Shown here: positions 958 through 25,078 of the stretch, in pieces
Position numbering within the stretch: position 1 is the stretch's first letter
Layout of the letters: each line of letters opens with the position of its first letter
Source of the DNA: a virus
Strand: one strand, 5' to 3'
IMG/VR virus record: IMGVR_UViG_3300024258_000063
Coordinates: 1-35,016 of that record
Length of the DNA: 35,016 nt
The notes under the pieces: generated by a model
Databases searched by the model: none
What the model saw: the letters and a program-made list of their open reading frames with translations, nothing else
What the model was told of the DNA's origin: nothing
Made by a program: the position numbers and the translations under genes

Positions 958-1095
958 GTCTTTTCCCTTATCAATTAATATTCCCCATCAAACTACCAGT
1001 TAAACGATTGTAACGCAACGATTATCTGACACGTTGGGCTAGCCAGGTTTGTCTCATTTATCAGCAACTATTTTCAGTTTATTTTGCTTTGCCTA
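958..1095. other. Divergent intergenic region with repeated ACGATT motifs
   Basis: This non-coding stretch separates the leftward 170-aa gene from the rightward block. AACGATT occurs at 1003-1009 and again at 1017-1023, 14 bp apart, and ACGATT recurs at 1139-1144 just past the rightward -10. The spacing suits a repressor or activator binding array, but that is inference. No convincing promoter was found for the leftward gene. Confidence 0.4.
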
Positions 1096-1124
1096 TTGAC
1101 AGCAGCATTATGATGATTTATATT
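1096..1124 (+). promoter_or_regulatory. Strong sigma70-type promoter of the rightward block
   Basis: A perfect -35 hexamer TTGACA (1096-1101), a 17-bp spacer and a -10 hexamer TATATT (1119-1124) lie 43 bp before the first ATG of the plus-strand block. Transcription should start near 1131. This match to the bacterial housekeeping consensus suggests early transcription by host RNA polymerase. Confidence 0.85.
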
Positions 1125-1142
1125 GTTAATAGTTAAAGACGA

Positions 1143-1160
1143 TTAATCATACAAGGAGAC
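1143..1160 (+). repeat. Repeated translation-start leader, copy 1
   Basis: The 18-nt sequence TTAATCATACAAGGAGAC contains the ribosome site of the gene at 1168. It recurs with one mismatch at 1386-1403 ahead of the gene at 1407. Confidence 0.75.
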
Positions 1161-1167
1161 TAAACAA

Positions 1168-1389
1168 ATGAGACGATTCCACGAAATAGAAAGCATAAAA
1201 CATAATAAAGCAAATTATTACTATATTAAGATTGATGGTAAATGGGAACATGGTTTGTTACGCAGAATATTAGGCCGAGATTACCTATCATTCCATCCGG
1301 ATTACCAATCCACCAATCACGGTTGTATTGATATTCCTTTACCTTTTAGAACTAACCGTGTTCCATCATATTCTATATTGGATTATTAA
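1168..1389 (+). CDS. Unknown 73-aa protein, first gene of the rightward block
   Basis: A 73-residue protein beginning MRRFHEIESI, rich in Tyr, His and Asn, ending SILDY. It is the first gene after the strong promoter and has an AAGGAG ribosome site 9 nt upstream, so it is likely among the first phage proteins made. I do not recognise it. Promoter-proximal position fits a small host-takeover protein, but nothing in the sequence shows that role. Confidence 0.7.
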   Translation: MRRFHEIESIKHNKANYYYIKIDGKWEHGLLRRILGRDYLSFHPDYQSTNHGCIDIPLPFRTNRVPSYSILDY

Positions 1390-5187: not shown

Positions 5188-5551
5188 TCCTGATCCTTGA
5201 AACCAACAGTTTCATATCACCATGCACATAATACAGGCTAGGGTTTTCCTCTAAACTATACGGCATCAGGCATTCCCATTCTTCACGGTCAGCCCTGTAA
5301 AGCAAAACGGGATGTTTACCAAGTGTCTTGGCCTGCTGACATGCCTGATCCCACCACTTCATTACGTCACCTTGGGTATATTTGATGCGCCTTTTAACCT
5401 CTATGGCCCACAACTCCCAGACTATATCAGCACCACCATCGCGAGTCTGGTCCAAAGTGCGGGAAAGGTCAACGCCTAAAAGGTCACCTAGTAACTGGCA
5501 TACCTCACGTTCACCCCTTTGTCCTTTGTCTCTGGATGCTTTACCACCCAT
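5180..5551 (-). CDS. PD-(D/E)XK nuclease, Holliday-junction-resolvase-like
   Basis: A 123-residue protein with the archaeal-Hjc-like nuclease layout: basic GxKGxRGEREV start with Glu14, then RTLDQTRDGGADIV carrying Asp38/Asp42, then AIEVKRR with Glu51-x-Lys53, followed by a helix (WWDQACQQAKTLG) and a strand (HPVLLYRAD). These residues form the two-metal catalytic centre of PD-(D/E)XK enzymes. It probably cuts branched replication or recombination intermediates before packaging, complementing the Erf/YqaJ system upstream. It could instead be another structure-specific nuclease of the same fold. Its ATG overlaps the HNH/AP2 stop as TAATG. Confidence 0.75.
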   Translation of the reverse strand: MGGKASRDKGQRGEREVCQLLGDLLGVDLSRTLDQTRDGGADIVWELWAIEVKRRIKYTQGDVMKWWDQACQQAKTLGKHPVLLYRADREEWECLMPYSLEENPSLYYVHGDMKLLVSRIRND

Positions 5552-6018
5552 TAGAAATTAGTCCTTGCAAACTCACCATAGTATTCCTTAGCCGCAACAT
5601 CGTAGGCTTTAGCGGCATCTACGTTATTTTCAAACCGACCTAAACACTTGTTTTTACCGTTGACCCTGATATTCGCCACCCACTTTGAAGTCATTGACGG
5701 ACTACTCACGCCCTTGAATTTTGAAGTCCCACCGATTTTCCCTCTACGGTTCATGCCATTCTGTGAAACGGTACAAATACGCAGATTGGATTTTCTGTTG
5801 TCCAGGCCATCCCTACTAATATGGTCTACACATTCCCCAAGTTGGGCATTCATAATTTCCCGGTGCATAGAAACCTTTTTCCCTTTTTCCGTTCTTGTAG
5901 CATACCGCCTGTCGGATGTTTTTTTGCCACTAACGCACCAATTAAATTGATTCAGATATTTATAATCCGAATCGTCAACAACCGCAAACAACCCCTGTGT
6001 CAATTCTATCTTACGCAT
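5551..6018 (-). CDS. HNH homing endonuclease with AP2 DNA-binding domain
   Basis: A 155-residue two-domain protein. The N-terminal domain has the HNH pattern: SMHREIMNAQ, then CVDHISRDGLDNRKSNLRI, with the catalytic DH pair and downstream Asn residues. The C-terminal half (GGTSKFKGVSSPSMTSKWVAN... to CLGRFENNVDAAKAYDVAA) is an AP2/ERF-type DNA-binding domain, as in phage homing endonucleases of the HNH-AP2 class. The start at 6018 is preferred over the ATG at 6030 because only the former has a GGAG site 7 nt upstream. Such genes are mobile: they cut a matching site and are copied in by repair. Its upstream side is a long gap with hairpins. Confidence 0.9.
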   Translation of the reverse strand: MRKIELTQGLFAVVDDSDYKYLNQFNWCVSGKKTSDRRYATRTEKGKKVSMHREIMNAQLGECVDHISRDGLDNRKSNLRICTVSQNGMNRRGKIGGTSKFKGVSSPSMTSKWVANIRVNGKNKCLGRFENNVDAAKAYDVAAKEYYGEFARTNF

Positions 6019-6358
6019 ACAACTCTCCATTAAAATCTAAACCAGTCAAAACATCTAAATCTCATTCACCTAACTCAAAACCAGTTAGGTGTAGCCTCTT
6101 TTAGGGGATTTGTCCTTTAGCGATAAACTTAAATTTCTGGACATCTCTTTTACATAGTATCACAGAAATGGGAACCTTGCGAAGAAAGTTTTAAGGGCTT
6201 TTGTTTTCATGGGTTTATAGGGTGTTTCTGGTTTGACAGTGTTTGGTGATTTCTTCATTTTAGGAGTAAAAAGACTAAGCTGGTGTGTACCCTTTTCACT
6301 GTTCATCGGACTTGCAACCCACACATTGGGTTGTACGGTCAGGGCCAGCCTATAAATT
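6019..6358. other. Non-coding gap with two hairpins
   Basis: No convincing gene was found in this 340-bp stretch. Two clear stems are present: CACCTAACT/AGTTAGGTG (9 bp, 7-nt loop, about 6067-6091) and CAACCCA/TGGGTTG (7 bp, 5-nt loop, 6315-6333). Neither is followed by a T-run on either strand. A 32-codon minus-strand frame near 6165-6260 has no ribosome site. The gap separates the HNH/AP2 gene from the Tat-signal gene. Confidence 0.6.
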
Positions 6359-6754: not shown

Positions 6755-6780
6755 TTGATTATCTCCTTAATTTGAAAGTA

Positions 6781-7042
6781 GGCCACGGGGAGTGTGTTAG
6801 CTCCCCGATAGACATGGCCCTTTTGGGCTAGTGCATCCGACCCTGCTGCCCCAGGTTATTAGCAAACCACCGGATGCTGTGGTATTTGAATTTAAGGCAA
6901 GGGGGCTGTGCCAACTCCCATCATCAGCTATAAGCACATTCAGCATCATAGCCTAGTACCTGACTCTCGCCCACCGATTCAGGGCCAACCCCCCTACCAA
7001 CCGTTTGTTCCCTCTTGCTTAATGCTGAAAGTCTACAAACGG
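6781..7042 (-). ncRNA. Candidate structured RNA upstream of the Tat-signal gene
   Basis: The minus-strand transcript of this gene-free stretch can form many stems, given here in plus coordinates: 7001-7008 with 7035-7042 (8 bp); 6989-6998 with 6896-6905 (10 bp including wobbles) closing a domain of about 100 nt; 6833-6839 with 6871-6877 (7 bp) enclosing two 4-bp arms; 6817-6820 with 6825-6828; and 6786-6792 with 6801-6807 (7 bp), itself flanked by GGCCA/TGGCC. This resembles a regulatory or processed RNA, or a long structured 5' leader. It is not a recognised tRNA or named RNA family. Confidence 0.45.
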
Positions 7043-7443
7043 CTTTTGAGCTTGTAATTTGCTATATCTAATTTGCGCCTATCATCTTCAAGTTCACACG
7101 TTAGCTGTTTGAGTTTTTCGTTTTCTTCTTCAAGCTCATCCCTTCGCATTGGCATAGAAACAAAAGCTCCCATGTCTTGATTTGCCTGTTCCTTCAAACT
7201 CTCAACTTCTCTTTCAAATTCTTTATACTTTTCAAAGCAATACCGCCCCCTTAGTAGGTCGTTGCTAAATTTATAAGAAGATGCAGATTGTTTTTCTAAT
7301 AGGACTTCTTCCTTCAAACTCTCAATAGTGGCGATTAGGCTGTCAAACTCTTTTCTTTTAAGCACCACCTGTTTCACATACTTAGCAAGGTCTGTTTTCA
7401 GTCCTGCAAACTCCTCATCCGTCAGCACAAGTTTTTCATTCAT
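7033..7443 (-). CDS. Coiled-coil protein of unknown function
   Basis: A 136-residue protein that is almost wholly predicted helix with heptad patterning. One coiled coil spans about residues 10-60 (LKTDLAKYVKQVVLKRKEF, then IESLKEEVLLEK) and another about 70-135 (FEREVESLKEQANQ, then RDELEEENEKLKQL). A GAGG ribosome site precedes the ATG, which overlaps the upstream stop as ATGA. No enzymatic motif is visible. It is the last gene of the long leftward replication operon. Confidence 0.7.
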   Translation of the reverse strand: MNEKLVLTDEEFAGLKTDLAKYVKQVVLKRKEFDSLIATIESLKEEVLLEKQSASSYKFSNDLLRGRYCFEKYKEFEREVESLKEQANQDMGAFVSMPMRRDELEEENEKLKQLTCELEDDRRKLDIANYKLKSRL

Positions 7444-17502: not shown

Positions 17503-17597
17503 CCTAAATAAACTCCCGCAACTTCCTGCAACCAAGGCAGATTTTCCAATACATACTGGTAACTACCGGATACCTCGTTTAACCATGCGAATTTCAT
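17499..17597 (-). CDS. 32-aa leader peptide gene coupled to the exonuclease
   Basis: A 32-residue frame (MKFAWLNEVSGSYQYVLENL..., ending GVYLG) with a GGAG ribosome site 6 nt before its ATG. Its stop overlaps the exonuclease start as ATGA, so translation of the leader likely delivers ribosomes to the exonuclease gene. It begins just after the intrinsic terminator of the leader. It could be a functional small protein or only a coupling ORF. Confidence 0.55.
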   Translation of the reverse strand: MKFAWLNEVSGSYQYVLENLPWLQEVAGVYLG

Positions 17598-17610
17598 AAC
17601 TGTCTCCGAA

Positions 17611-17655
17611 TAAAAAAGGGGAAACACCGTCTGCCATGACACGGTGAATCCCCTT
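17611..17655 (-). terminator. Intrinsic terminator inside the leader of the replication operon
   Basis: On the minus strand AAGGGG (17655-17650), a 3x3 internal loop, CACCGT, a 10-nt loop, ACGGTG, and CCCCTT are followed by TTTTTTATT. This is a strong rho-independent terminator. It lies about 60 nt downstream of the predicted start of the 17.7 kb promoter and before the first gene. The loop (17631-17638) is complementary to leader sequence at 17692-17699. Confidence 0.8.
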
Positions 17656-17662
17656 AGTTAAT

Positions 17663-17682
17663 GCTTTAGCTGTGACTAAAGC
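17663..17682 (-). other. Leader hairpin between start site and terminator
   Basis: GCTTTAG (17663-17669) pairs with CTAAAGC (17676-17682) around a 6-nt loop. It lies between the two complementary segments 17692-17699 and 17631-17638 and would bring them close together. Confidence 0.6.
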
Positions 17683-17691
17683 CTATCTGTC

Positions 17692-17699
17692 CATGGCAG
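17692..17699 (-). promoter_or_regulatory. Candidate anti-terminator segment
   Basis: The plus-strand CATGGCAG here is the exact reverse complement of CTGCCATG at 17631-17638, the loop of the terminator. In the minus-strand RNA these 8 nt can pair, either as a kissing contact or by competing with the terminator stem. Confidence 0.45.
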
Positions 17700-17703
17700 G
17701 ACT

Positions 17704-17724
17704 ACTTCTCAATAACTGAGAGTA
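17704..17724. promoter_or_regulatory. Operator-like dyad at the leftward start site
   Basis: TACTTCTCA and TGAGAGTA form a near-perfect inverted repeat around ATAAC, with one extra base. It overlaps the predicted start site and abuts the -10 element, a usual place for a repressor site. The exact protein is unknown. Confidence 0.45.
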
Positions 17725-17752
17725 AGATACCAAACCATTGGACCGCTGTCAA
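17724..17752 (-). promoter_or_regulatory. Leftward sigma70-type promoter of the replication operon
   Basis: On the minus strand TTGACA (17752-17747), a 17-bp spacer and TATCTT (17729-17724) form a good housekeeping promoter, with transcription starting near 17717. It reads into the leader peptide, exonuclease, Erf, ssb and downstream genes. Confidence 0.82.
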
Positions 17753-17763
17753 GTGTTATTTCA

Positions 17764-17809
17764 AACCACCTTTAACTCCGTTAAATGGTTCGTAGAGGAA
17801 ACCTCTACG
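17764..17809 (-). terminator. Tandem hairpins at the end of the virion operon
   Basis: Two adjacent stems lie at the 3' end of the lysozyme gene: CGTAGAGG/CCTCTACG (17791-17798 with 17802-17809, 8 bp, 3-nt loop, covering the stop codon), and AACCA-TTTAAC with GTTAAA-TGGTT (17764-17790, 11 bp with a 2-nt bulge). No strong T-run follows, so they may be processing or 3'-end-protection elements rather than a simple intrinsic terminator. Confidence 0.55.
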
Positions 17810-23936: not shown

Positions 23937-25078
23937 CCGAACAATCCTCCTAGCGCACCAACGGCTCCACCAAGTTGACCCATGCTACCAGCCAACCCTA
24001 ACCCACCACGTTCTGCGGTTGTGGTCTGTGTCCCACCGAAGTTACCCTGAATCAGATTCATGTAATTGGCAAGTTTCTGATCGCCAATGTTCTGGTCAAA
24101 CTGGAAGCGGTTAATATCTTCATCCAACTGTTGCTGACTCAACTCACGCTGTTGCATTCCAACATCACTCAAGTTGCCAGCTACGTCAATCGGCTGTTGC
24201 GATACAGCACCGTAAGCACCAAGGCCAGTACCAAGGTTCTGGTTGATCTGTCCTTCGCCTGCAAGACCTAATCCAAAAGCACCTGTTCCCTGTTGCAAGG
24301 CTTCACCGGCTCTAGCTCCCCGTCCACCTTCAAGTAACTGTGCAGCCTGCATCTGCTGTTGCTGTGCAGAGTTAAAGGCATTCATATAATTTGTGTTGGC
24401 AAAGTCTGTGATGCTACGGCCCACGTTCCCCGCAGCAATACCACTGGCAATGTCACCGCGAGAAGAACCCCCCGGTTGGTAAGCAATCTGACTAGCCCTT
24501 AATGCTGGCATTACCTGTTGCTGGAAGTTACTGACTGCATCAGCAGCCATGGCGTTGTTCGCATTCTGAATGAATGGATTTTGTGCCACACTACCAGACA
24601 ACATCTGTTGCATCAACGGTGATGCACCTGTCTGGTCACCTACAGCAGAATCGGTGAAGTTACTAGCCGCAACCAATGATTCTTGACCGTAAGGGGCCAA
24701 GCCTCTGGTAGCCTGAAGCATCGGGTTATTGCTCGTATTCAACAACTCATTGCCGACTGCATTCTCGGCTCCAGCTTGCAACCCCTGTGGTCTTCCACTC
24801 CCCAAATAATCTACAACACTCTGCTGATATGCAAGTTCATTTTGATTGAACGGTGAGATGGTGTTGCCAGGGAAGAACGATGGACTGTCCGATTGAAACC
24901 TGTCCTGTGCTTCCTGAAAACCGTAGGTAAGAAAAGGCTGTTGACCTTCCCACGGGTCAGCTTTCTCTACCGTGTTGGTAGAACCACCGCTTGACCCACC
25001 GCCACCCTTAAAGAAGGCGGTCTTGAATAGTTTAGAGGATGTTTGCTCGTATTCCTCATTTAGAAAATCACGCTTCAT
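23933..25078 (-). CDS. Virion protein with N-terminal Gly-linker and WEGQQP motif
   Basis: A 381-residue protein. After a basic start comes a GGGGSSGGS linker, then ADPWEGQQPFLTYGFQEAQD. I associate the WEGQQPYL...GFxQAQxLY pattern with structural proteins of many environmental podoviruses. The rest is Gln/Ala/Asn-rich and helical (NAMAADAVSNFQQQVMPALR, QQQQMQAAQLLEGG). It is likely part of the inner core or tail interior; no enzyme motif is seen. Confidence 0.65.
   Translation of the reverse strand: MKRDFLNEEYEQTSSKLFKTAFFKGGGGSSGGSTNTVEKADPWEGQQPFLTYGFQEAQDRFQSDSPSFFPGNTISPFNQNELAYQQSVVDYLGSGRPQGLQAGAENAVGNELLNTSNNPMLQATRGLAPYGQESLVAASNFTDSAVGDQTGASPLMQQMLSGSVAQNPFIQNANNAMAADAVSNFQQQVMPALRASQIAYQPGGSSRGDIASGIAAGNVGRSITDFANTNYMNAFNSAQQQQMQAAQLLEGGRGARAGEALQQGTGAFGLGLAGEGQINQNLGTGLGAYGAVSQQPIDVAGNLSDVGMQQRELSQQQLDEDINRFQFDQNIGDQKLANYMNLIQGNFGGTQTTTAERGGLGLAGSMGQLGGAVGALGGLFG

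Follow-up and report, generated by a model that had tools for sequence, protein, structure and literature searches.

A stable 103-nt domain in an intercistronic gap of an uncultured phage: a possible RNA processing or stabilising element

Does the untranslated stretch that precedes a Tat-capsid-like reading frame in an uncultured phage give rise to an RNA with a function, or is its folding only that of a G+C-rich spacer? The question was raised by an initial annotation, in which positions 6781–7042 were described as a gene-free, densely structured RNA candidate of 260 nt, suggested to be regulatory or processed. The DNA analyzed here (the window) is the entire IMG/VR record IMGVR_UViG_3300024258_000063, of 35,016 bases, in which the part from about 4.8 kb to the right end has its likely genes exclusively on the minus strand. 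The exact untranslated gap sits between a gene of 136 aa and an ORF of 131 aa (Table 1); the flagged interval begins 26 nt inside this gap and extends at its other end 10 nt into the upstream gene.

No convincing coding potential was found in the flagged stretch, where the longest ATG ORF has 50 aa and codon scores are zero or below in all frames. A hidden or decayed gene in the gap was ruled out, as no coding signal was present. The stretch is not entirely gene-free, however, since positions 7042–7035 fall within the final codons of the upstream gene. The claim that this phage wastes almost no space was not borne out: according to the ORF list of this analysis the genome is 91.4% coding and 8.6% non-coding, and five further interior gaps of 240–330 nt each are found in it. 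Separately, the gap at 17536–17804 (minus strand) was observed to have more structure than the flagged gap (z -3.6 to -4.0); it lies between late genes and a recombination-type gene and holds a textbook intrinsic terminator with a U run behind it.

The neighboring minus-strand genes from 9938 down to 7033 mostly overlap in an operon-like manner. No sigma-70-like promoter was detected on the minus strand near the gap, and no intrinsic terminator or attenuator (a G+C-rich hairpin followed by a U run) was found on that strand within 6755–7042. Since the upstream genes overlap and neither signal was detected, read-through is the simplest source of a transcript. A search for tRNA and tmRNA found none.

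Table 1. Coordinates of the gap, its predicted RNA stems, the internal repeat and the flanking genes.
Feature	Position	Strand	Remarks
Untranslated gap	6755–7032	-	278 nt, 50.7% G+C
Hairpin 1, 8-bp stem CCGUUUGU/ACAAACGG	7042–7035 with 7008–7001	-	Mean pair probability 0.99, all contexts
Domain 2, three-way-junction-like, 103 nt	6896–6998	-	Closing helix of 13 bp, 6998–6986/6908–6896
Domain 3, 8-bp stem GCAUCCGG/UCGGAUGC	6877–6870/6840–6833	-	Not robust
Short hairpin GCCC-AAAA-GGGC	6817–6828	-	Depends on context
6-bp hairpin GGGGAG(8)CUCCCC	6787–6806	-	P 1.0 in all contexts
Degenerate direct repeat, copy A, 36 nt	6770–6805
Degenerate direct repeat, copy B, 36 nt	6884–6919		Holds 3' arm of domain 2 closing helix
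Upstream gene, 136 aa	7033–7443	-	Coiled-coil-like; no confident family
Downstream ORF, 131 aa	6359–6754	-	Tat-like signal and major-capsid N-terminal fragment

When the flagged interval was folded on the minus strand, an energy of -100.5 kcal/mol was obtained (z -2.28), with 3 of 200 shuffles as good; its plus strand gave z -1.97. The exact gap, however, reached only z -0.57, and 32 of 100 shuffles did as well. The interval scores better than the gap because it takes in the end of the upstream gene, and with it one arm of hairpin 1, and because it omits the unstructured side next to the start codon. Against dinucleotide-shuffled controls the picture is thus mixed, with lower energies for the interval and for domain 2 (z -3.6) but not for the true gap. 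On the minus strand, 268 sliding 260-nt windows had a mean z of -0.50 (sd 1.24); neither of those lying mainly in the flagged region (z -0.93 and -2.3) was among the 15 lowest. The weak score of the gap and these unexceptional windows favor the explanation that the structure is incidental, the gap being an unconstrained or decaying G+C-rich spacer in a lineage-specific mosaic region, with no RNA function. The same explanation is favored by the fact that fold energy by itself rarely detects non-coding RNAs and is a weak detector (PMC3150283).

All five stems described for the minus strand were found on folding. Nevertheless, the dense structure claimed for the whole 260 nt was reduced to one robust domain of 103 nt and two short robust hairpins, the remainder being unstable. 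The stem that had been described as 10 bp closing about 100 nt exists and spans 103 nt, although its length is 13 bp. It encloses a side hairpin GCCC/GGGC and a long irregular arm, and its pair probability was 1.0 in all four sequence contexts. The 110-nt window about 6889–6999 had the lowest MFE (-47.3) of the 1249 sampled on the minus strand, and was fifth on the same strand when ranked by z (about -4.0). The next six most stable 110-nt windows, starting at 24913, 15385, 20641, 11905, 15361 and 24529, are mostly intragenic. That the most stable sampled window falls within the 8.6% of non-coding DNA, and that three stems show near-certain pairing, argues against a merely incidental structure.

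Only one stem on the minus strand, that of domain 2, combines a length of 13 bp or more with at least 8 G-C pairs and a span of at most 120 nt. As such stems also arise in shuffled genomes (0.175 expected per genome; 7 of 40 contained one), the helix is notable but not beyond chance genome-wide, a result that counts in favor of incidental structure and against a cis-acting element. Domain 2 is the only part of the region that stands out in the genome, and it was picked after the fact.

A highly improbable explanation is that the locus acts as DNA, through protein-binding palindromes or as a replication or recombination site whose inverted repeats mimic RNA stems. The stems are indeed inverted repeats on both strands, and the plus strand of the interval folds as well. 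By contrast, domain 2 gave z -3.6 on the minus strand versus -1.0 on the plus strand and relies on G-U pairs present only in the minus-strand RNA; moreover, no skew switch was found at the gap, and no further copies of the gap sequences were found elsewhere in the window.

Regarding the other stems, the 5' arm and loop of hairpin 1 hold the last codons and the stop codon of the upstream gene, and the region 6999–7044 around it gave z -5.2, for an interval chosen after the fact. The stem of domain 3 had probabilities of 0.95, 0.81, 0.00 and 0.86 across the four contexts, and is thus lost in one longer context. It had been described as a 7-bp stem with two internal arms; the stem is there, but it has 8 bp and encloses a single arm in the MFE fold. 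The 6-bp hairpin precedes the AUG of the downstream ORF by about 32 nt and is not paired with the ribosome-binding site. Since this site is partly accessible, a direct block of the start is not predicted.

The two copies of the internal direct repeat, whose spacing is 114 nt, share 72% identity; 3 of 2000 shuffles scored as high. The repeat may be an old tandem duplication that was the source of part of the hairpins, and a degenerate internal duplication is among the features in line with incidental structure. It also bears on an explanation that we consider unlikely, namely that the region serves the Tat-capsid ORF as a regulatory leader or is a small RNA in its own right, either switch-like or trans-acting. 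The position immediately upstream of that ORF, the direct repetition of a hairpin segment and the three robust stems would fit such a role, and in principle the G-rich 5' arm of domain 2 could pair with either of the C-rich 3' arms. However, the pairing probability of domain 2 is 1.0, about 17 kcal/mol is lost when its 5' arm is blocked, and the ensemble shows no competing fold, for which reason an arm-exchange switch between the repeat copies was rejected. The unsequestered ribosome-binding site and the failure to detect a promoter or terminator also speak against a leader or small RNA, as do the searches described below, in which neither an Rfam match nor homologues beyond a sibling contig identical in this region were found.

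The downstream ORF had been called a Tat-capsid gene. Its Tat-like signal scores above the NCBIfam cut-off for TIGR01409 (21.9 bits versus 16.7), and its residues 61–97 match the N-terminal part of the major capsid proteins of about 335 aa from relatives with 42–54% identity, in an alignment that includes a ten-residue gap. The signal and the homology to SU10-type major capsid proteins were thus confirmed, but the homology covers an N-terminal fragment and not a whole capsid gene. Judged from this homology, the ORF is a capsid-derived fragment, not the capsid gene of this phage, which, from the gene order of relatives, should lie off this contig, between portal and adaptor. The ORF is far from that expected locus and could be a relic, a decoy or a new small protein.

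An HNH/AP2 endonuclease gene was observed at about 5551–6033 (minus strand), directly in front of a PDDEXK gene. The 17-nt sequence TTAATGGAGA(G/A)TTGTAT is found at the start of the HNH/AP2 gene and also just before the PDDEXK start in the related locus L017 (2600–2616), where the HNH gene is missing. This match, not significant alone, suggests that the HNH gene was inserted before the PDDEXK gene. The shortened capsid fragment adjoining the gap speaks for incidental structure, in a mosaic part of the genome to which the nearby endonuclease gene also belongs. An HNH/AP2 gene 0.7 kb downstream, with a capsid-gene fragment between, also recalls a group I or group II intron near an HNH gene. Unlike in that arrangement, the capsid fragment is not in place as a 5' exon and the region is located beyond the capsid ORF, and no catalytic core of a group I or II intron was matched by the Rfam models in the gap or in the second gap at 6031–6358.

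The sole homologue of the region was the sibling contig IMGVR_UViG_3300024302_000061, which is 99.9% identical over 14.7 kb, has zero differences across 6755–7042, and reaches past the left end of the window into a terminase gene, an HNH gene and the start of a portal-like gene. The terminase search retrieved 16 further related contigs with 49–81% amino-acid identity. Two of these, L017 and L018, have the PDDEXK nuclease and its downstream neighbor in common with the window, but the genes upstream of the nuclease differ. Viral contigs were also scanned with the downstream ORF, an upstream gene, the helicase, the terminase, the PDDEXK nuclease and a PAPS-reductase-like gene as queries, and only the one sibling and relatives without the region were obtained. 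No sequence or structural match to the gap was found in the terminase-linked relatives, many of which are fragments ending short of the locus, so that its absence there says little. The lack of the region in any of these relatives weighs on the side of incidental structure and against the cis-element reading.

A covariance model of domain 2 found only domain 2 itself in 305 kb of related loci and eight related records, and DNA similarity searches of phage and plasmid collections returned nothing, or chance matches with E of about 4. An arm-gap-arm pattern had five matches in genome contigs, about as many as we estimate for chance; these were rejected, since no alignment was obtained between their interiors and the covariance model does not match them. 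With Rfam 15, at gathering and permissive thresholds, nothing above threshold was found in the window, the gap or 13 related loci; the best sub-threshold hits reached 17.3 and 13.2 bits, where the gathering scores are 45, and at E up to 5 only weak snoRNA chance matches appeared. Locus L017 was seen to have a structured gap of 206 nt of its own (1090–1295, plus strand; z -2.88), which likewise precedes the PDDEXK gene by two genes. The similarity of the flagged gap to this gap or to the second gap at 6031–6358 was not significant. A match between the second gap and that of L017, equaled by 2 of 1000 shuffles, was discounted, as comparable chance scores were obtained across other loci.

Domain 2 resembles the large phage-associated RNAs GOLLD, ROOL and HEARO in being structured, untranslated RNA of a phage genome, but it is much smaller, has no Rfam match and is found in a single lineage. 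It is considered very unlikely that this domain forms the core of a phage RNA not described so far, restricted to one lineage and with a role of its own, as a regulator of the Tat-capsid ORF or acting in trans, whose diverged relatives have yet to be sequenced. Another likeness is to the RNase III processing sites in the polycistronic early mRNA of coliphage T7, where an irregular hairpin containing a long helical segment likewise lies between cistrons of a phage operon. The likeness is one of position and shape alone, and no sequence similarity is claimed. Processing and end-stabilising elements usually take the form of a stable, irregular hairpin between cistrons.

Taken together, the explanation that we tentatively prefer, as a possible rather than a probable one, is that the gap is an intercistronic cis element in a polycistronic message, with a hairpin for mRNA processing or stabilisation. 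Minus-strand read-through would carry the gap as an untranslated intercistronic region after the small early-type gene at 7033–7443. Domain 2 would then act in cis as mRNA punctuation, as a double-stranded processing site and/or an end-stabilising hairpin, and so separate the upstream from the downstream message; the 6-bp hairpin near the start codon would shield the downstream leader. The double-helical segment of an RNase III-type site is present in the gap (13-bp helix, P 1.0), in a region that is presumably transcribed; any cutting or end stabilisation, and the enzyme involved, are likewise inferred. The gap's z of -0.57 is a statistical point against this cis-element reading. Incidental structure is almost as likely, given that the gap as a whole scores no better than shuffled sequence and that the region is lineage-specific. 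As for the regulatory or processed RNA originally proposed, a stable fold in an untranslated gap leaves a cis-regulatory or processed element possible, but the score of the gap, the failed compactness argument and the lack of an RNA family match stand against it.

From a methodological point of view, structure that appeared dense by eye was reduced to one notable domain once the choice of interval and the genome background were controlled. The finding is an ordinary one unless diverged homologues or transcript data say otherwise, and its importance would grow only with evidence of a fold conserved in diverged relatives. If domain 2 is a processing or stabilising element, it would represent one more case of RNA punctuation in phage operons, in a group of uncultured phages.
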